Assembly (NCBI GenBank): GCA_002494215.1
Contig: DLBF01000144.1
Location: 1 to 6,471 of the forward strand
Length of the DNA: 6,471 bases
Direction: 5' to 3'
From: Prevotellaceae bacterium UBA7028
GTDB taxonomy: Bacteria > Bacteroidota > Bacteroidia > Bacteroidales > Bacteroidaceae
The notes below the pieces were generated by a model. That model was not told the DNA's origin and did no database searches. It saw only the letters and a program-made list of their open reading frames with translations. Position numbers and translations under genes: made by a program. Position 1 is the stretch's first letter. Each line of letters opens with the position of its first letter. Below are positions 1-6,471 of the stretch, one piece after another.

Positions 1-2262
1 ATCATTGCCAACGAGAGTCAGGAGCGTATGGGTCTGCTTATCGATGAGAAGCACATCGACCATGTACGTAAGATTGCTGAGCGCGAGCGCGCTCCGTTGT
101 ATGTCGTTGGTGAGACAACTGGCGATGCACACTTCAGCTTCGAGCAGGGTGACGGTGTTCGTCCCTTCGACCTGGAGGTAAGTCAGATGTTCGGTCACTC
201 TCCCAAGACCATCATGCGCGACAAGACCGTTGAACGCAAGTATGAGAATGTGTCTTCAATTCAAAATTCAAAATTAGAAATTCAAAATCAATTAGAGAAA
301 GTCCTTCAGCTGGAGGCTGTTGCCTGCAAGGATTGGTTGACCAACAAGGTGGACCGCTCCGTAACAGGTAAGGTTGCACGCCAGCAGTGTCAGGGTGAGT
401 TGCAGTTGCCTCTCAGCGACTGTGGTGTTGTTGCCCTCGACTATCGTGGCGAGAAGGGTATCGCTACAGCATTGGGCCATGCACCTCAGGCTGCTTTGGC
501 AAACCCCGCTGCTGGTTCTGTACTCTCTGTTGCCGAGTCTCTGACTAATATTGTTTGGGCTCCCTTGGAGGAAGGCTTGGACAGCGTAAGCCTCAGTGCT
601 AACTGGATGTGGCCCTGCCGTGCTCAGGAGGGTGAGGATGCCCGCCTCTATACTGCCGTTAAGGCACTCTCTGACTTCTGCTGCGAGCTGCAGATTAACG
701 TGCCCACAGGTAAGGACTCGCTGAGTATGACTCAGAAGTATCCCAATGGTGAGAAGATCATCTCTCCGGGTACCGTCATCGTAACCAGCGGTGGTCAGGT
801 AAGCGACATCAAAAAGGTGGTTTCACCCGTGGTTCAGAACGTACCCTCTACGCTGTACCACATTGACTTCTCATTCGACGAGCTTCGTTTGGGTGGTTCA
901 GCCTTTGCACAGGTTAACAACAAGGTGGGCAGCGATGTTCCTACCGTTAAGAACAGCGAATATTTCCGCGATTGCTTCAATGCCATCCAGGCCCTGATTC
1001 AGAAGGGCCTCATCCTGGCTGGTCACGATATCAGCGCCGGTGGTCTTATCACTACCCTGCTGGAGATGACCTTCGCCAATACAAAGGGTGGTTTGAACAT
1101 CAACTTAGACAAGATAAAGACCGACGACCTGACAAAGATTCTCTTCGCAGAGAACCCTGGCGTTATTATTCAGGTTGCCAACGACAAGCGTAGCGAGGTG
1201 AAGAAGTTCCTGGAGGATGAAGGCGTTGGCTACGTTAATATAGGTGAGCCTGCAAAGGGTCGCACCCTTGCCATTGAGAAGAACGGACAGACATACAACT
1301 TCGACATTGACGCGCTGCGTGATGTTTGGTACAAGAGCAGCTTCCTGCTGGATCAGAAGCAGAGCTTCCACGGCAAGGCAGCTGAGCGCTACCAAAACTA
1401 CAAGCAGCAGCCTCTCGAGTGGAATATCCTTCCCAACTTTACAGGCAAACTGAGCCAGTTCGGTCTGAACCCCGACCGTCGTGAGAAGAGCGGCCTGCGT
1501 GCTGCCATCATCCGTGAGAAGGGTACAAATGGCGAACGCGAGATGGCTTACATGCTGTATCTGGCAGGCTTCGATGTGAAGGATGTTATGATGACCGACC
1601 TTATAACTGGTCGTGAGACACTGGACGACATCAACTTCATCGTCTTCTGTGGCGGCTTCTCTAACAGCGACGTATTGGGTAGCGCTAAGGGATGGGCTGG
1701 TGCCTTCCTTTACAACCCCAAGGCAAAGGAGGCCCTCGACCGCTTCTACGCCCGCAAGGATACCCTGTCACTGGGTGTCTGCAACGGTTGCCAGTTGATG
1801 GTGGAACTGGGGTTAATTAAAAATGAAAAGAGAAAAGAGAAAAATGACGAGAAACCTCGTATGCTGCATAACGACAGCCACAAGTTCGAGTCTAACTTCT
1901 TGGGCCTGACTGTACAGCCCAACAAGAGTGTGCTGATGGAAAGCCTCAGCGGCAGCAAACTCGGCATCTGGGTGGCTCACGGCGAAGGTAAGTTCTCTCT
2001 GCCTGGCAAGGAGGAGGATTACAACATCGTTCTGAAGTACAGCTACGACGGTTATCCTGCTAACCCCAACGGTAGCGACTTCACCACTGCTGGTATCTGC
2101 AGTGCCGATGGTCGTCACTTGGCTATGATGCCTCACCTGGAGCGTGCCTTCTTCCCCTGGCAGTGTGGTTACTATCCCGCTGACCGCAAAGCACAGGATC
2201 AGGTGACACCTTGGATTGAAGCATTTGTAAACGCTAAGAAGTGGATTGAGAAGAATTCATAA
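1..2262 (+). CDS. purL: Phosphoribosylformylglycinamidine synthase (FGAM synthase), C-terminal part, 5'-truncated by window edge
   Basis: PurL converts FGAR, glutamine and ATP to FGAM in cytosolic de novo purine synthesis. The frame is open from base 1, so the ATG at 28 is internal (Met10) and the real start lies upstream. 753 residues are visible; long-chain PurL is usually about 1,200-1,300, so roughly the first 480 are missing. Order: tail of the first AIRS-like half (NESQER, ERERAP, residues 1-45), linker, second AIRS-like half (about 100-470, with TGKDSLSM at 236-243 and HDISAGG at 342-348), then the class I glutamine amidotransferase domain (about 498-753). The glutaminase triad is intact: Cys594 in GVCNGC, and His712 and Glu714 in MPHLER. 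Two A+T-rich, lysine/asparagine/glutamine-rich segments (about 86-99 and 605-618) coincide with heptad repeats, and the last two codons plus part of the stop lie in a third array. Family assignment is certain from the motifs. Confidence 0.97.
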   Translation: MIANESQERMGLLIDEKHIDHVRKIAERERAPLYVVGETTGDAHFSFEQGDGVRPFDLEVSQMFGHSPKTIMRDKTVERKYENVSSIQNSKLEIQNQLEKVLQLEAVACKDWLTNKVDRSVTGKVARQQCQGELQLPLSDCGVVALDYRGEKGIATALGHAPQAALANPAAGSVLSVAESLTNIVWAPLEEGLDSVSLSANWMWPCRAQEGEDARLYTAVKALSDFCCELQINVPTGKDSLSMTQKYPNGEKIISPGTVIVTSGGQVSDIKKVVSPVVQNVPSTLYHIDFSFDELRLGGSAFAQVNNKVGSDVPTVKNSEYFRDCFNAIQALIQKGLILAGHDISAGGLITTLLEMTFANTKGGLNINLDKIKTDDLTKILFAENPGVIIQVANDKRSEVKKFLEDEGVGYVNIGEPAKGRTLAIEKNGQTYNFDIDALRDVWYKSSFLLDQKQSFHGKAAERYQNYKQQPLEWNILPNFTGKLSQFGLNPDRREKSGLRAAIIREKGTNGEREMAYMLYLAGFDVKDVMMTDLITGRETLDDINFIVFCGGFSNSDVLGSAKGWAGAFLYNPKAKEALDRFYARKDTLSLGVCNGCQLMVELGLIKNEKRKEKNDEKPRMLHNDSHKFESNFLGLTVQPNKSVLMESLSGSKLGIWVAHGEGKFSLPGKEEDYNIVLKYSYDGYPANPNGSDFTTAGICSADGRHLAMMPHLERAFFPWQCGYYPADRKAQDQVTPWIEAFVNAKKWIEKNS
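258..292. repeat. Heptad repeat array inside purL, in frame
   Basis: Five consecutive 7-bp units in one register: AATTCAA twice, AATTAGA, AATTCAA, then a decayed AATCAAT. The surroundings are ordinary G+C-richer purL coding sequence. The array encodes residues about 86-98 (SIQNSKLEIQNQL), between the conserved ERKY and VLQLEAVACKDW segments, in the linker leading to the second AIRS-like half. The first 13 bases (258-270) are an exact reverse complement of 2348-2360, at the start of the first chrA gene, so the two sites carry the same repeat family in opposite orientation. Confidence 0.8.
1819..1846. repeat. Purine-rich heptad repeat array inside purL, in frame
   Basis: Four 7-bp units in perfect register: AAAAATG, AAAAGAG, AAAAGAG, AAAAATG. 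Less regular A-rich sequence flanks them (1812-1818 and 1847-1854). The array encodes a highly charged stretch (KNEKRKEKND, residues 607-616) between the catalytic-cysteine helix (GVCNGCQLMVELGLI) and the conserved MLHNDSHKFESNF segment of the glutaminase domain. From memory, Bacteroidetes PurL proteins have a shorter loop here, so this looks like a small in-frame expansion; an alignment would settle it. Confidence 0.72.
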
Positions 2263-2288
2263 TTATCAATTCATAATTCATAATAAAA
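2254..2288. repeat. Heptad repeat array covering the purL stop codon
   Basis: Four AATT-led heptads in register (AATTCAT, AATTATC, AATTCAT, AATTCAT), then a decayed AATAAAA. The first unit supplies the last two PurL codons (Asn, Ser) and the first base of the TAA stop; the second supplies the remaining AA. The array is the left arm of an imperfect inverted repeat with 2329-2363. Confidence 0.82.
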
Positions 2289-2360
2289 AAGGCATAAGCA
2301 ACCAAGAGGAAAGGAAATGGAATGACACAATTAAGAATTGTGAATTATGAATTTTGAATT
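2254..2360. other. Imperfect inverted repeat (possible stem-loop) joining purL stop and chrA1 start
   Basis: By hand alignment the reverse complement of 2254-2284 matches 2330-2360 at 25 of 31 positions; three of the six mismatches fall in one heptad. The intervening segment of about 45 bases is unrelated and purine-rich. In the transcript this could fold into an A+U-rich stem enclosing the purL stop codon in one arm and the chrA1 start codon in the other. Whether it forms, or merely reflects two inverted repeat copies, cannot be told from sequence. It has no U tract and is not a standard terminator. Confidence 0.5.
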
Positions 2361-2363
2361 ATT
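2329..2363. repeat. Heptad repeat array supplying the chrA1 start codon
   Basis: Five AATT-led heptads in perfect register: AATTAAG, AATTGTG, AATTATG, AATTTTG, AATTATT. The ATG of the third unit is the start codon at 2347, and the following units encode the first residues Asn-Phe-Glu-Leu. AATTATG is a rotation of the reverse complement of AATTCAT, so this array is the same family as 2254-2288 in inverted orientation. Confidence 0.85.
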
Positions 2364-2877
2364 CAAAACATTCTTTCAGATAGGACTTTTCACCTTCGGT
2401 GGCGGCTATGCAATGATACCGCTGATAGAGCAGAAAGTTGTTGATGAAAAGCATTGGGTCGACCACGATGAGTTGGTCGACCTGATAGCTGTTGCCCAAA
2501 GTTGCCCAGGCGTCTTTGCCGTTAACATCAGCATCTTCATCGGCTACAAGCAAAAAGGCGTATGGGGAGCCTTCCTAAGCACCTTGGGCGCTTGCCTACC
2601 CTCTTTCATAATCATTCTGCTCATAGCCCTTGCCTTCATGCAGTTTAGGGACAACCCATGGGTAGAGAAATTCTTCAAGGGTTTACGCCCCGCTGTTGTT
2701 GCACTCATTGCCTCGCCAGTATTCCGCATGGCCAAGAGTTCGCATATCAACCGCTACAACATCTGGATCCCCTTCCTTTCAGCCTTTGCCATCTGGCTAT
2801 TAGGCGTCAGCCCTATATACATTATATTAATAGCTGGCTTGGGTGGCTATGCCTACGGGCAGTATTTGAGGGATTAG
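2347..2877 (+). CDS. chrA: CHR-family (chromate transporter-like) single-domain membrane protein, first of a pair
   Basis: A 176-residue integral membrane protein with one CHR domain, a family named for chromate efflux, although many members have no tested substrate. Family marks are the N-terminal IGLFTFGGGYAMIPLI (residues 12-27), AQSCPGVFAVN (50-60) and FKGLRPAVVALIA in the middle, with about five or six hydrophobic segments and no signal peptide. Length fits short-chain CHR proteins, which usually occur as adjacent pairs. The start at 2347 is the only one possible: the next upstream in-frame triplet but one is a TGA at 2341-2343, and MNFELFKTFF aligns with the second copy's RLFWTFF. That start lies inside a heptad repeat. 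An AGGAAAGG motif is 33-40 bases upstream, too far to be a normal ribosome-binding site. It probably forms a heteromer with the next gene; the transported ion is not deducible here. Confidence 0.93.
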   Translation: MNFELFKTFFQIGLFTFGGGYAMIPLIEQKVVDEKHWVDHDELVDLIAVAQSCPGVFAVNISIFIGYKQKGVWGAFLSTLGACLPSFIIILLIALAFMQFRDNPWVEKFFKGLRPAVVALIASPVFRMAKSSHINRYNIWIPFLSAFAIWLLGVSPIYIILIAGLGGYAYGQYLRD

Positions 2878-2881
2878 GGGT

Positions 2882-2951
2882 CATTGAACATTGAACATTG
2901 AACATTATTGTAAACGGTAAACAGTAAACAGTAAACAGTAAACGGTAAACA
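2882..2951. repeat. Ten consecutive heptads between the two chrA genes
   Basis: Seventy bases form ten 7-bp units with no slip in register: CATTGAA three times, CATTATT once, then GTAAACG, GTAAACA three times, GTAAACG, GTAAACA. The unit changes completely after the fourth copy, yet the period continues exactly. The array fills most of the 89-bp gap between the chrA1 stop (2877) and the chrA2 start (2967), ending 15 bases before the start codon. There are no spacers, so this is not a CRISPR array. Confidence 0.95.
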
Positions 2952-2966
2952 AGAGCTAAAATTATC

Positions 2967-3545
2967 ATGGTAATATTGTTATTAAGATTATTCTGGACGT
3001 TTTTTCTCATTGGACTTTTTGGGTTCGGGGGAGGATATGCCATGATATCCATGATTCAAACCGAGGTGGTTACACACCAGCATTGGATGACGATGGGACA
3101 GTTTACAGATATTGTTGCCATTAGCCAAAGTACGCCTGGCCCCATTGGCATCAATAGTGCCACATACGTTGGATATACAGCTTTGGTAAATGCTGGGTAC
3201 GATCCTTCTTGGGGTGTACTGGGAAGTTTCATAGCCACCTTTGCCGTCGTCTTCCCCAGTTTTGTGCTCATGCTTATCATCAGCAAATTCCTGATGAAGT
3301 ACAAGACACATAGTGCTGTAGAGAGCACCTTCCAAGGACTGCGCCCTGCTGTTGTAGGCTTACTGGCTGCTGCAGCCCTATTGCTTATGAACGGGGAGAA
3401 CTTTGGCAATATCTCAGAGACACCTTGGCAATTCTGGATAAGCGTAGGACTCTTCAGTTTTGCCCTGATAGCTCACCGTATATATAAAACAAACCCCATA
3501 GCTATTATTCTGCTATGTGGTTTAACAGGAATGCTCCTGTTCTAA
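2967..3545 (+). CDS. chrA: CHR-family (chromate transporter-like) single-domain membrane protein, second of a pair
   Basis: A 192-residue membrane protein homologous to the preceding gene. Shared features are LIGLFGFGGGYAMISMI (residues 14-30), a histidine-tryptophan pair (HW, 39-40), ISQSTPGPIGIN (52-63) and FQGLRPAVVGLLAA, with several long hydrophobic segments reaching the C-terminus. It keeps the Pro-Gly-Pro typical of many CHR proteins, where copy one has Pro-Gly-Val. Paired short CHR proteins are known to act together, for example in Bacillus subtilis, so a two-subunit transporter is likely; the substrate (chromate, sulfate-like or another oxyanion) is unknown. The ATG at 2967 directly precedes the first hydrophobic segment. 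No ribosome-binding site is recognisable, as is common in Bacteroidetes. The gene ends in a terminator stem that includes its stop codon. Confidence 0.93.
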   Translation: MVILLLRLFWTFFLIGLFGFGGGYAMISMIQTEVVTHQHWMTMGQFTDIVAISQSTPGPIGINSATYVGYTALVNAGYDPSWGVLGSFIATFAVVFPSFVLMLIISKFLMKYKTHSAVESTFQGLRPAVVGLLAAAALLLMNGENFGNISETPWQFWISVGLFSFALIAHRIYKTNPIAIILLCGLTGMLLF

Positions 3546-3579
3546 AACAGAAGCATTCCCCATAATTTTTCCTTTTTAT
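3528..3579 (+). terminator. Rho-independent-type terminator overlapping the chrA2 stop codon
   Basis: GGAATGCT (3528-3535) pairs perfectly with AGCATTCC (3552-3559). Inside it, after one C/A mismatch, CTGTT (3537-3541) pairs with AACAG (3546-3550). The four-base loop CTAA (3542-3545) holds the TAA stop. A T-rich stretch with two five-T runs follows at 3566-3577. It suits the rightward purL-chrA transcript. The reverse strand lacks a T-run after the stem, so action on the convergent operon is less certain. Confidence 0.8.
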
Positions 3580-3601
3580 ACTTTAGATTCCTAAGAATGG
3601 A

Positions 3602-4018
3602 TTATTCTGCAGATTTCTGTGCAGGATCATCGAAATCGGTAACACCGTTTTCAACAAGAATATTGTACCACTGGGCCAACTTCTTCATATCTGCAGGATA
3701 AACACGGTCACGGTCGTAGTTGGGAAGTGCCTCTGCCATAAATGCAGCTAACTCATCCTTGCTTGCCTTCTTGTAATCGAGGCTGGTCTTCTTACCGCCT
3801 TCCTTCTCCAGAATATTCTTGAATACACGACGCAGAGGAACTTCTTCCTCGTCGGTGTACATAGCAATGTCTGCCAATGAGATTACCTTGTCGGCACCAA
3901 ATATGGGCATACGCTTCTTCTGAGCATCCAATGTCTCAACAATAAGACTGTTATTACCACGTGATACCAACTTATACAAACCGGGCTTGCCGGATATTGC
4001 CAAAACTGTTTCTAACAT
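3602..4018 (-). CDS. DUF5606 domain-containing protein of unknown function
   Basis: A 138-residue soluble protein without signal peptide or membrane segment. The N-terminal third (residues 1-45, with ISGKPGLYKLVSRGNNSLIVETLD at 8-31) matches the DUF5606 family as I remember it, which is largely confined to Bacteroidetes. The Gly/Pro-rich, beta-prone N-terminus resembles a small barrel-like fold, which is inference only. The C-terminal half is charged and probably helical (KKASKDELAAFMAEALPNYDRDRVY), ending in an acidic tail. It is the last gene of the operon, 22 bp after coaE; the steady linkage to coaE, ybbR and nusB suggests a housekeeping role but does not say which. No catalytic motif is visible. 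The start at 4018 gives the expected family N-terminus MLETVLAISGKPG. Confidence 0.87.
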   Translation of the reverse strand: MLETVLAISGKPGLYKLVSRGNNSLIVETLDAQKKRMPIFGADKVISLADIAMYTDEEEVPLRRVFKNILEKEGGKKTSLDYKKASKDELAAFMAEALPNYDRDRVYPADMKKLAQWYNILVENGVTDFDDPAQKSAE

Positions 4019-4040
4019 AATTTCTTCTTGTTTAATTATA

Positions 4041-4628
4041 TCAAATTAAAGTAATATTCTTAAATATTGCCTGCAAGGATGTCAGTAAGGATTCCTGCTG
4101 GCGGTCTTTATTCTCTATCACATAATCTGCCTTCTGACGTTGTTCGTCAGCCCTTTGCATACCTATGCGGGCCTCAACCTGCTGTCGAGTACTACCGTCT
4201 CTCTGCATCACCCGTTGTATGCGTAGCTCTTTAGGTGCATCCACGAAAAGAACTTTATCGACCAGCGTATCAAAGCCACTCTCGTATAATATGGCACTTT
4301 CGATAGCTACCACATTAGTATTCTGCTGTACAGCCCATTTGCAGAAATCCTCTTTCACAGCAGGATGGACAATAGCATTAACATTCTGGGCATGACATTG
4401 GTCGGCAAAAAGGTAATCAGCTAAAACAGCCTTCTGTAACTTACCATCCTTATATACATGCGCTCCAACCAGCTCTTTTAGGCGCTTTTGTATGCTGCCA
4501 TCTTCGCCTATCAGGCGCTTTGCTTCAGCATCACAATCATAGACTGGCACATTAAGATGCTCGCGTAGGAGAGAAGAGATATAGCTCTTCCCACTTCCTA
4601 TTCCACCTGTGATGCCAAGTTTTATCAT
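4041..4628 (-). CDS. coaE: Dephospho-CoA kinase
   Basis: Catalyses the last step of coenzyme A synthesis, ATP-dependent phosphorylation of the ribose 3'-hydroxyl of dephospho-CoA, in the cytosol. 195 residues, normal for the family. The Walker A motif GGIGSGKS is at 8-15, followed by the conserved DCDAEAKRL (31-39) with the Asp residues that contact substrate and metal. HP at 88-89 in the VHPAV motif, Glu110 in the ESAILYESG segment, and the lid-region pattern RVMQRD..R with Arg154 and Gln158 are all present. The protein ends with ADYVIEN and a short tail, as usual. It sits 19 bp after ybbR and 22 bp before the DUF5606 gene, consistent with one transcript. All key residues are intact, so it should be active. 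Confidence 0.97.
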   Translation of the reverse strand: MIKLGITGGIGSGKSYISSLLREHLNVPVYDCDAEAKRLIGEDGSIQKRLKELVGAHVYKDGKLQKAVLADYLFADQCHAQNVNAIVHPAVKEDFCKWAVQQNTNVVAIESAILYESGFDTLVDKVLFVDAPKELRIQRVMQRDGSTRQQVEARIGMQRADEQRQKADYVIENKDRQQESLLTSLQAIFKNITLI

Positions 4629-4647
4629 AGCAACCTCACTTTAAAGC

Positions 4648-5655
4648 CTATTGGCCTCCCCCGTCCATTTCTGAAAGTTCTATCAGATAGTCAACATCCC
4701 GAGGAGAGATACGGGCATTGGTAACTCCTTCTGGAAGCGATTTCAAATGCAACCGATATTTGTCGGTAGGATTTTGCAACAACTCCTCATAGGTAATGGC
4801 CAATACAAAGTTCTCGGTATTGATACTCTGATAACGTCCAGACTCTACACGAAATGTGACCTTAGCCTTTGAAGGGAAAGTTCGCAGCTCTTTGTCGCCA
4901 GGGAAATTCAGTCCTATTATGGGAACCTCGACAGTCTTTTCTGCATAATAGCCCACATGAGCCGTCATTCGCACGACATTCGGTTCATACTCGACACCCT
5001 TCATTTTGCGGAATGCAACGTTATGAACTGTGTTTTCCTTCATCATAGACAGGTTAACAACCTGCGTATAAGCATACTGCATGGTATCAAGCACAGCATT
5101 AGGGGCATACACCAAGACGCTATCCTCCGAAAGGCTTATGTCCTGAATGTAGTTCTGAGGCGAAGCACTGACACTACCGCATAACATAACAGGAAGGCGG
5201 CGAGCCACCCCTCTGTTGTAATAGTACTCCAAGGTATCAGGACGCATGGAGATTATATGGCTTGTTACGCCAAGTTGTTTTTGAATCATTCGCTGGACCT
5301 CAGCTGTAGGAACCTGCACACGGGCATTGGTAAGACCTGCATCATATTTATCGAAGTCCACCTCTATGGCTTTCTGAACGGAGTAGCGAAAGAAGTGCAA
5401 CAACGTTGTTCCCCTTTCCTTAACGGTGACATTCACCTGAGAAGGCAGTCCCGTTGTGATATGAACATTCTCTGGAACATTTTTCAACTCCAATGGAATA
5501 GAGATTTCCGTCTCGAATGTTTCGTTCAGCGTCTGCAATAACCAGAAACCGGCAGATACCACAAAGAAGAAGAGGAAGACAAAAAAATCATGGCTTTTCT
5601 TGCCAAAAAGCAAATTCTTTATCCTCACCCAAACCTTTACGATTCCGTATCTCAT
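4648..5655 (-). CDS. YbbR-like domain protein, membrane-anchored
   Basis: 335 residues. A short basic N-terminus (residues 1-23) precedes a single transmembrane helix at about 24-40 (FFVFLFFFVVSAGFWLLQ), then an extracytoplasmic beta-rich region. The WLLQTLNE motif just after the helix, and repeated stretches such as ISIPLELKNVPENV and VTVKERG, are typical of Bacteroidetes YbbR-like proteins. In Firmicutes, YbbR/CdaR regulates the diadenylate cyclase CdaA, encoded next to it. No cyclase gene is in this window, so that role cannot be carried over. Here the gene stands between yajC (41-bp gap) and coaE (19-bp gap), suggesting an envelope function with housekeeping expression. The start at 5655 gives a plausible inside-positive anchor. 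Family is fairly sure, function is not. Confidence 0.9.
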   Translation of the reverse strand: MRYGIVKVWVRIKNLLFGKKSHDFFVFLFFFVVSAGFWLLQTLNETFETEISIPLELKNVPENVHITTGLPSQVNVTVKERGTTLLHFFRYSVQKAIEVDFDKYDAGLTNARVQVPTAEVQRMIQKQLGVTSHIISMRPDTLEYYYNRGVARRLPVMLCGSVSASPQNYIQDISLSEDSVLVYAPNAVLDTMQYAYTQVVNLSMMKENTVHNVAFRKMKGVEYEPNVVRMTAHVGYYAEKTVEVPIIGLNFPGDKELRTFPSKAKVTFRVESGRYQSINTENFVLAITYEELLQNPTDKYRLHLKSLPEGVTNARISPRDVDYLIELSEMDGGGQ

Positions 5656-5696
5656 AGTGCAGACCTATTTAAGACAGAACGCTGTCCTCCGTTTGC

Positions 5697-5969
5697 CTAC
5701 TGGTTGGGCTGAGCCTGAGCGAAAACTGAATTACGGTCGACCTTGATGCGAACACCATTGGCTACCTCAATCATCAGCGTATTGTCGCTCTCTTCTATCT
5801 GCTTTACAACGCCATAGATGCCACCGGCTGTTACAACTGCCTGTCCTACGCTAATGCTATTACGGAAGTTCTGAATCTCCTTCTGCCTTTTCTGCTGAGG
5901 ACGAATCATAAGGAAATACATGATGGCAAAAAGAGCCGCAATCATCAAAAGACCACTGTACTGTTGCAT
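5697..5969 (-). CDS. yajC: Preprotein translocase accessory subunit YajC
   Basis: A 90-residue inner-membrane protein that associates with SecDF and the SecYEG translocon. One transmembrane helix at residues 6-22 is followed at once by the signature RPQQKRQKE (23-31), then the conserved VGQAVVTAGGIYGVVKQI (41-58) and a short beta-rich cytoplasmic domain ending in a Gln/Pro-rich tail. It is somewhat shorter at the N-terminus than many Bacteroidetes YajC proteins. The frame upstream of the ATG at 5969 has no further start before a stop near 6006, so the short form is what this sequence encodes. It lies 82 bp after nusB and 41 bp before ybbR. Placement with nusB and coaE, rather than beside secD, is the Bacteroidetes arrangement. 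Confidence 0.95.
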   Translation of the reverse strand: MQQYSGLLMIAALFAIMYFLMIRPQQKRQKEIQNFRNSISVGQAVVTAGGIYGVVKQIEESDNTLMIEVANGVRIKVDRNSVFAQAQPNQ

Positions 5970-6019
5970 TGTTGTTCTTATTTTAATTAATGTTTTTACT
6001 ATTGTCTAATTCATTTGGA

Positions 6020-6047
6020 TTGCCCTCGCCTATAGGAGAGGGGGCAA
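6020..6047. repeat. GC-rich palindrome between nusB and yajC
   Basis: TTGCCC (6020-6025) pairs with GGGCAA (6042-6047). After two unpaired bases on the right arm, TC pairs with GA, a G/A mismatch follows, and CC/GG close a TATA apex around the CCTATAGG core. It begins four bases after the nusB stop codon (read leftwards). No T tract follows on the minus strand, so a classical terminator is unlikely. The shape and CCTATAGG-type apex resemble dispersed REP-like palindromes that I associate with Bacteroidetes intergenic regions. It could equally be an mRNA processing or stability hairpin. The rest of the 82-bp gap is A+T-rich with no recognised promoter. Confidence 0.6.
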
Positions 6048-6051
6048 GCTT

Positions 6052-6471
6052 TTATTCGTTCTTAATCAACTTGTTTTCTTCTATCAGTCTCTTGGCAATA
6101 TTGTCAAGTGTTGCATTGATGTACTTTCCGCTCTTGCTGGTACTGTACATCTTGGCAATCTCGACATACTCGTTGATGCTGACCGAGAGCGGTATCTGCG
6201 GGAAGCTCAGTATCTCGGCGATGGCGATCTGCATGATGACGACGTCCATGAAGGCGAGTCGGTCGAACTCCCAGTTCTTCACGTTCTGCTCGATCAGGCT
6301 GCGGTAGTATTCGTCGTTCAGTATGGTACGTCGCAGCAGGCGTATGGCATACTCGCGGTCGTCGTCGTCCTTGAATTCGGGCAGCAGTTCCTGCTTGGCG
6401 GTGCTCTTCTCGTCGAATCGCTTGAGGGTCTTGAGCACGAAGGTGTCGACGATCTCCTTGTCGTCGTTCCA
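6052..6471 (-). CDS. nusB: Transcription antitermination factor NusB, C-terminal part, 5'-truncated by window edge
   Basis: NusB binds the boxA RNA element with NusE (ribosomal protein S10) and supports antitermination of rRNA operons. 139 residues are visible and the frame stays open to the window end (beginning WNDDKEIVDTFVLK). The GTG codon at 6438 is therefore internal Val, not a start. The all-helical NusB domain is recognisable from RRTILNDEYYRSLIEQNVKN, then FDRLAFMDVVIMQIAIAEIL, then INEYVEIAKMYSTSKSGKYINATLDNIAKRL, which match the conserved helices and the S-x-KFVN-type motif of the family. Bacteroidetes NusB proteins often carry a long N-terminal extension (total near 300 residues), so more than half may lie outside. 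It is the first visible gene of the leftward operon. Its first part is about 57% G+C and its last 60 coding bases only about 33%. Confidence 0.93.
   Translation of the reverse strand, partial: WNDDKEIVDTFVLKTLKRFDEKSTAKQELLPEFKDDDDREYAIRLLRRTILNDEYYRSLIEQNVKNWEFDRLAFMDVVIMQIAIAEILSFPQIPLSVSINEYVEIAKMYSTSKSGKYINATLDNIAKRLIEENKLIKNE

Follow-up and report, generated by a model that had tools for sequence, protein, structure and literature searches.

The window analysed here, by which we mean the whole stretch of 6,471 nucleotides (6.5 kb) of contig DLBF01000144.1 from Prevotellaceae bacterium UBA7028, an uncultured bacterium of gut type, carries the C-terminal part of purL and two chromate-transporter halves, all in one direction, and an opposite-strand run with genes for a DUF5606/DUF6852 protein, coaE, a YbbR-domain protein, yajC and nusB. 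In and between the purL and chromate-transporter genes lie arrays of tandem 7-bp units (heptamers), which an earlier note, made from the sequence alone, had described as a strict, A+T-rich repeat family. From our point of view, a good part of the heptamer arrays in this lineage probably belong to short palindromic elements scattered through the genomes, either as one of the two arms or as an arm that has remained behind alone. The genes and arrays concerned are the following:

28..2262, forward strand: purL, C-terminal part of FGAM synthase, host of two arrays (open reading frame, ORF; Pfam GATase_5, FGAR-AT PurM_N-like, AIRS_C)
258..292, forward strand: solitary in-frame AATTCAA array without a hairpin, in the PurL loop at about residues 77-88 (site 1; lag scan; predicted RNA unstructured)
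1819..1846, forward strand: solitary AAAARWG-type array at PurL loop site 2, in frame (lag scan)
2254..2288, forward strand: 5' arm of a hairpin element, AATTCAT type, holding the purL stop TAA (2260-2262)
2289..2328, forward strand: core separating the two arms, of about 40-50 bp according to the limits set for the arms; missing from the relatives L001 and L006
2329..2363, forward strand: 3' arm, ATGAATT type, holding the ATG at 2347 that is the predicted ORF start of chrA1
2347..2877, forward strand: chrA1, chromate transporter half (PF02417)
2882..2906, forward strand: CATTGAA array at the chrA1-chrA2 junction (Tandem Repeats Finder, TRF; lag scan)
2910..2951, forward strand: GTAAACA array at the chrA1-chrA2 junction (TRF; lag scan)
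2967..3545, forward strand: chrA2, chromate transporter half (PF02417)

The units are AATTCAA, AATTCAA, AATTAGA, AATTCAA, AATCAAT at 258-292; AAAAATG, AAAAGAG, AAAAGAG, AAAAATG at 1819-1846; AATTCAT, AATTATC, AATTCAT, AATTCAT, AATAAAA at 2254-2288; AATTAAG, AATTGTG, AATTATG, AATTTTG, AATTATT at 2329-2363; and 3.6 copies of CATTGAA followed by six of the GTAAACA type at 2882-2951. These arrays are real and far above chance, as five segments reach a lag-7 score of at least 11 and cover four of the five array places listed in the earlier note, while 200 dinucleotide shuffles of the window gave 0.005 lag-7 segments per window. Since 2254-2288 passes only at lag 14, or as 2268-2284 at a lower score, and since TRF assigns it 15% indels, the period of 7 stands for all five arrays but the statement that there are no register slips was slightly too strong; the array ends near 292 and 2288 are degenerate. 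It is borne out that the period is better conserved than the sequence, that arrays occur both inside and between genes, and that the leftward operon is free of them, with no period-7 array found in 3546-6471 by TRF and lag scan. A+T richness, on the other hand, is not a general feature, as units of the GGTTAG and GGGGCAA types are also present in relatives. The short tandemly repeated repetitive (STRR) sequences of cyanobacteria are heptanucleotide repeats as well, and the comparison drawn with them seems reasonable for period and intergenic placement.

The 13-base reverse-complement match between 258-270 and 2348-2360 that had been reported is exact, and it pointed to a real arrangement, namely inverted array pairs that are hairpin elements in relatives, with 2254-2363 being one such element in the window. 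From 2353 on, its 3' arm consists of chrA1 codons that also fit period 7. About 95 bp between purL and chrA1 (within 2254-2363) are missing from L001 and L006, in which the purL stop and the chrA1 start overlap by 8 bp in the alignment. These two are the closest by PurL (95% and 93% in the best segment) among the best 80 loci kept by the search, the closest of which come from uncultured Prevotellaceae/Bacteroidaceae drafts. The fold predicted for the whole element (-21.5 kcal/mol, z -3.2) is weaker than those predicted for four elements of relatives (z -6.0 to -9.8). Searched in five relatives, the window element found 91 matches in G005, 78 in G047, 54 in G001, 44 in G002 and 6 in G006; among the matches listed, long ones of 70-77% identity came from G047 and G005, and most others were single arms. 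G006 is near the window (88% DNA identity in purL), yet has only its 6 matches versus the 54 of G001, a contrast that would reflect lineage-specific gain or loss.

Genome-wide tests were run on relatives of the window, all of them draft genomes without completeness figures, and relied on stretches chosen without regard to repeats (unselected stretches: 342 kb of G005, 400 kb of G001, the closest genome among these, 347 kb of G040 and 200 kb of G029). Period 7 is favoured in this lineage. The four stretches hold 48, 58, 28 and 46 period-7 arrays, respectively, compared with 1, 0, 0 and 1 after one shuffle each; period 5 is absent from all four, period 6 amounts to 1, 5, 6 and 2 arrays and period 8 to 18, 13, 10 and 4, and the next-best among periods 4-12 is period 9 with 28, 16, 10 and 18. 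The repeat family of the earlier note would have been refuted if period 7 were no more frequent than periods 5, 6 or 8, or if the arrays were fixed ancestral sequence in all relatives; instead, period 7 leads in the stretches of the relatives, and arrays are young at orthologous sites, where they differ between close relatives, L001 for instance having AATTCTC units at a site where the window has AATTCAA. With a stricter score, the 80 purL loci (954 kb) retained 45 period-7 arrays in 20 loci, whereas periods 8 and 9 contributed 10 and 7, respectively. Period-22 arrays came second at this score, with 18 in the purL loci; G005 has 23 of them. Over five genomes, 226 of 353 arrays lie outside ORFs, though ORFs cover 89-92% of the DNA, in a count that used simple ORF cover and stretches partly chosen for holding arrays. 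PMC4692102 and PMC4679880 report heptamer arrays as over-represented in many bacteria, with no agreed origin, and mention a polymerase footprint as a suggestion for period 7.

In the relatives, an array often has an array of the reverse-complement unit within the next 150 bp. Among neighbouring pairs in the unselected stretches of the four genomes, 20 of 48 are inverted, 6 direct and 22 unrelated, where random pairing of the units would give 5-16% inverted; when selected stretches are included, 42 of 83 are inverted, 9 direct and 32 unrelated. In the unselected stretches the excess is seen in G005 (9/15, p 1.5e-6), G029 (6/12, p 0.006) and G040 (2/5, p 0.03). A collection of 65 inverted elements from six genomes (stretches partly selected) comprises many unit families (AATTCAT/AATTCAC/AATTCTT 45, GGTTAG types 5, plus a dozen others), and the arms agree within one element and vary from element to element. 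For the main unit the order is fixed as AATTCAT..ATGAATT: AATTCATAATT followed after 15-45 bp by AATTATGAATT was counted at 20 different sites, spread over 5 of 42 genomes, whereas the reverse order, which is equally palindromic, occurs at 1 site in the same 42 genomes. In a genus sample, where only the AATTCAT..ATGAATT order was searched, 12 of 61 genomes had it. In the G005 element at L178:804-984, the core is present as three direct copies that are separated by AATTCATAATT. Among solitary arrays at co-directional junctions, 17 of the 22 close to the stop have the AATTCAx sense and 17 of the 24 close to the start the xTGAATT sense (p 0.0014); for solitary arrays of other units (120 arrays, with 25 of equal G and C set aside), G-rich ones favour stops (54:26) and C-rich ones favour starts (26:14; p 0.0009).

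Arms and cores recur together at different loci. In the G005 stretches, 14 of the 31 GGCTACGCC sites sit directly 3' of an AATTCAT-type arm, and the same order of variant heptamers precedes GGCTACGCC at L167, L178 and L180 as well as in an element of G047 (L205). Comparison of a 20 kb stretch of G005 with four relatives gave, among the matches listed, many dispersed ones of about 50-110 bp. Twenty G060 loci were sampled among the matches listed: nine hold a GGTTAG-armed element that shares 78-84% identity with the copy in G005, with the core present in eight by motif search and nearly identical in L238, L240 and L245, and nine others hold a sister family with 9-bp-period arms (ACGGATTACACGGATTT...) around GCTGATTATCAGC; the printed flanks differ between element copies. 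The sister hairpins, seen at L246-L254 and at L101:14745-14880 with arms of the form ACGGATTACACGGATTTCACGGATT and GCTGATTATCAGC at the centre, may account for part of the period-9 arrays. Orthologous junctions can be empty, as in the case of a junction of 121 bp in G005 that measures 12 bp in both G047 and G002, where the element is missing, and of a second one of 218 bp as against 30 bp in the same two genomes. At another orthologous junction the lengths are 224 bp versus 36 bp in G075, in which, by our reading, stop and start overlap as ATGA.

With regard to gene context, for which genes were called by a home-made codon-usage caller, 39 of 48 inverted elements from five genomes (selected stretches included) lie between co-directional genes, the remainder being 5 inside genes (two of them G005 PurL elements), 3 divergent and 1 convergent. 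The elements firmly prefer tight co-directional junctions, as judged from predicted gene starts: removal of the element leaves at most 30 bp at 31 of the 39 co-directional junctions, while of 872 co-directional junctions without arrays 313 are this tight, and these contain 2,732 of 112,778 intergenic bp. In the unselected stretches the proportions are 13 of 18 for element junctions versus 208 of 575 for array-free ones (p 0.003).

Insertions into a coding sequence are seen in PurL. The 81 PurL sequences (window plus 80 loci) contain 18 period-7 arrays in 11 sequences, compared with two arrays of period 6 and one of period 9 among the other periods from 4 to 12, and 17 of the 18 cluster at three sites, namely residues 79-84 (site 1; 8 arrays in 6 sequences), 487-489 (3 arrays in 3 sequences) and 596-607 (6 arrays in 5 sequences). 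The arrays at 258-292 and 1819-1846 of the window are two of these 17. Site 1 lies just N-terminal of the PurM_N-like domain (residues 101-254) and also has period-7 arrays in L001, L005, L063, L071 and L073; at 1819-1846, L001 and L006 are 12 nt shorter and lack such an array, while L005 has an inverted pair. Inverted pairs are found in PurL of L005 at the first and third site and of L071 at the first, and no internal stops were reported in the 80 purL frames. A protein search with residues 60-110 returned, among the best 120 of 7447 clusters, 15 identical to the window over these residues, which may include its own, and five further ones at 98%, so that the 258-292 array is not an assembly accident.

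The inverted architecture, the fixed order of the AATTCAT family, the recurrence of arm plus core, the empty orthologous junctions and the preference for tight junctions are demonstrated features of these arrays, and we propose the following scheme for them. A complete element would consist of a 5' arm of about 3-6 heptamers, a core of about 15-130 bp and a 3' arm; as the unit of the latter is the reverse complement of the unit family of the former, a long hairpin becomes possible in RNA or single-stranded DNA. Such elements may have spread through a trans-acting enzyme as non-autonomous mobile DNA, in the manner of REPINs (hairpin-forming pairs of repetitive extragenic palindromic, REP, sequences) or miniature inverted-repeat transposable elements (MITEs). 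Slippage would afterwards alter array length and unit sequence, and solitary arrays would be remnants, as argued for REP singlets in PMC3116915. The insert may mend the gene boundary that it splits, by which insertions in tight operon junctions would be tolerated. Because 7 equals 1 mod 3, the stop (TAA in AATTCATAA) or start (ATG in ATGAATT) of a unit appears in successive frames; any period not divisible by 3 does likewise, and the frame argument therefore does not explain the number 7. It is possible that the element affects mRNA stability or translational coupling.

Several results weigh against this interpretation. In the window itself, both PurL arrays are single and not hairpins, and the chrA1-chrA2 junction at 2882-2951 carries two direct arrays and not a hairpin, with no hairpin predicted for 2870-2970 (z -0.03; in relatives this junction has other arrays in L001 and is short in L003 and L004). 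Among the relatives, only 3 of 16 neighbouring pairs are inverted in the closest genome, G001 (p 0.057), solitary arrays make up 191 of the 266 that lie at co-directional junctions, and in the unselected stretches the excess of co-directional placement is not significant (18/20 versus 440/604, p 0.12). For 42 elements of the AATTCAT type, the pairing of an element's own arms is not stronger than that of permuted arms (-25.0 versus -25.5 kcal/mol), and covariation of the arms thus provides no proof that pairing is selected. The compared junctions showed no recognisable target duplication, being too diverged for one to be recognised. Lastly, searches of element-bearing drafts for Y1 transposases and for PF00078 did not find the mover. 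REP-associated tyrosine transposases (RAYTs) were rejected in this role, as no PF01797 (Y1_Tnp) match was found in the drafts of G001, G002, G029 and G040; G005, the fifth element-bearing genome tested, has one partial weak match.

Other sources were considered as well. A coding transposon between distant AATTCAT arms was not supported by the 3.6 kb pair on contig C11 of G005, which turned out to be the two junction arrays of separate genes (no systematic search was made), and spread by plasmid or phage found no support, with no plasmid match for one G005 element and no phage match for the window element in searches whose BLAST low-complexity filter may hide arms.

The earlier note had left open whether a dedicated copying enzyme, slippage or a structural role of 7-bp phasing lies behind the arrays, and the last of these is weakened by the 9-bp-period arms of the sister family. 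If slippage with a favoured 7-nt step, as proposed by Mrazek et al. (2007) according to PMC4679880 and PMC4692102, made each array in place and inverted pairs arose later by template switching or fold-back copying, one would understand why period 7 dominates over many units, why units drift between close relatives at the same site, why solitary arrays are the majority at junctions, why own arms pair no better than permuted ones and why inverted pairing is weak in G001. Slippage alone, which fits unit drift and array length, nevertheless yields neither the inverted pairing nor the fixed order, neither the same arms and core at several loci nor the joint insertion of a non-repetitive core with both arms, and we regard this origin as improbable, though it deserves to be kept in mind.

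Considerably less probable is that the hairpins are selected regulatory parts of operons, tuning mRNA stability or coupling translation, with copying being secondary. The preference for tight junctions, the strong predicted folds and the opposite sense of near-stop and near-start solitary arrays would suit such a role, whereas gain and loss at orthologous junctions, the lack of covariation between own arms and the insertions inside PurL do not. As for the dedicated enzyme, one could speculate that a telomerase-like, RNA-templated activity extends broken 3' ends by short repeats, the joining of two of which leaves inverted arrays of one unit in a fixed sense. This would predict inverted arrays with one strand-invariant sense, matching the data, and PMC12632851 describes a bacterial enzyme, DRT10, that makes tandem-repeat cDNA. 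However, of eight element-bearing genomes searched with PF00078, seven had no match and the eighth, G029, only a weak one (the genomes are drafts, and reverse transcriptases that are divergent may escape the model), by which a reverse transcriptase as source was rejected and the RNA-templated form of the copying enzyme is disfavoured; the recurring cores, the many different units per genome and the product described for DRT10, a protein-primed cDNA whose repeat is 9 nt long in one system, argue in the same direction, and we consider this explanation very improbable indeed.

Viewed as dispersed hairpins, the elements are genomic repeats of a familiar kind, though unusually built. REPINs, as described in PMC3116915, have two inverted modules around a spacer with a hairpin predicted in single-stranded DNA or mRNA, and many extragenic copies per genome with single modules as presumed remnants; inverted, hairpin-capable modules around a spacer occur likewise in the relatives and at 2254-2363 of the window, and the copies are multiple, dispersed and extragenic. 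Unlike in REPINs, the arms are tandem heptamer arrays of several unit families and arrays also lie inside genes, and since no Y1 transposase of the RAYT type was found in 4 of the 5 element-bearing drafts tested (the exception being the partial weak match in G005), we do not class the element as a REPIN. With MITEs, according to PMC10969869 short non-coding inverted-repeat DNA that is dispersed and found in operons, it shares terminal inverted repeats in the form of the inverted arms; the termini here are, however, heptamer arrays, target duplications were not recognised at the diverged junctions, and a parent transposon was not identified, though no systematic search was made for one. In this context, the title of a paper on the Chunjie MITE, cited in PMC10969869, speaks of entry into an operon without disturbance. 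Rickettsia palindromic elements (PMC10969869; Ogata et al., 2000) resemble the in-frame palindromic inserts in a metabolic gene that we find in PurL of L005 (two sites) and L071 (one site), but they measure about 150 bp and contain a conserved peptide according to PMC10969869, and the PurL arrays of the window are single arms. By analogy, the element would work like a REPIN, and its copies within PurL of L005 and L071 would do so like Rickettsia palindromic elements.

By description, tandem 7-bp units above chance are heptanucleotide simple sequence repeats, which PMC4692102 and PMC4679880 portray as mostly intergenic and variable between close relatives; the matched inverted pairs around recurring cores, the many unit families and the fixed order of the main one set the present arrays apart. 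The same sources mention inverted GGGAATC repeats for Xanthomonas (PMC4692102) and TAACTGA repeats for some Bacteroidetes (PMC4679880). DRT10 (PMC12632851) offers a bacterial activity that makes short tandem-repeat DNA, but the product is reported to be a protein-primed cDNA, the repeat of which is 9 nt long for Eco3DRT10 and differs in length among relatives, and a reverse transcriptase was not matched here in 7 of 8 genomes, in a search that could overlook divergent enzymes. Among the titles and abstract openings returned by searches of an open-access library, none described heptamer-armed hairpins in Bacteroidales.

Going further, one could tentatively imagine a RAYT-independent class of mobile intercistronic hairpins with arms that are short tandem arrays renewed in concert, although we hold this broader picture to be rather doubtful. 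It would comprise several matched inverted-arm unit families per genome, of fixed sense at least in the main one, and would open tight or overlapping stop/start junctions of operons, with the arms able to supply both codons in successive frames. Matched inverted-arm families are observed for the AATTCAT, GGTTAG and AGTTTAA types, together with the 9-bp units of the sister family, and some process would be needed by which both arms are put in place or converted jointly. If many arrays of this lineage are hairpin arms of dispersed elements, one can test how they spread and how they are ordered and placed in terms of mobile DNA and not of slippage alone; as such, they would also constitute a natural experiment on the insertion tolerance of operon junctions and of the loops of an essential-type enzyme, PurL.

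The other length differences in the compared G005 stretch are palindromes without heptamer arms. Dispersed palindromes of this kind, of the CCCCTTTAAGGGG type, occur in G005 and relatives (L101:1082-1162, 6282-6414 and 11815-11935), and those at L101:6282-6414 and 11815-11967 fill junctions that measure 2 and 15-24 bp in relatives. At the G060 junction matching L101:9509-9606 (L260), a direct array with units of about 23 bp (CGAGGCACGCTCTTATT...) is found, and the gap is 492 bp there versus 96 bp in G005.

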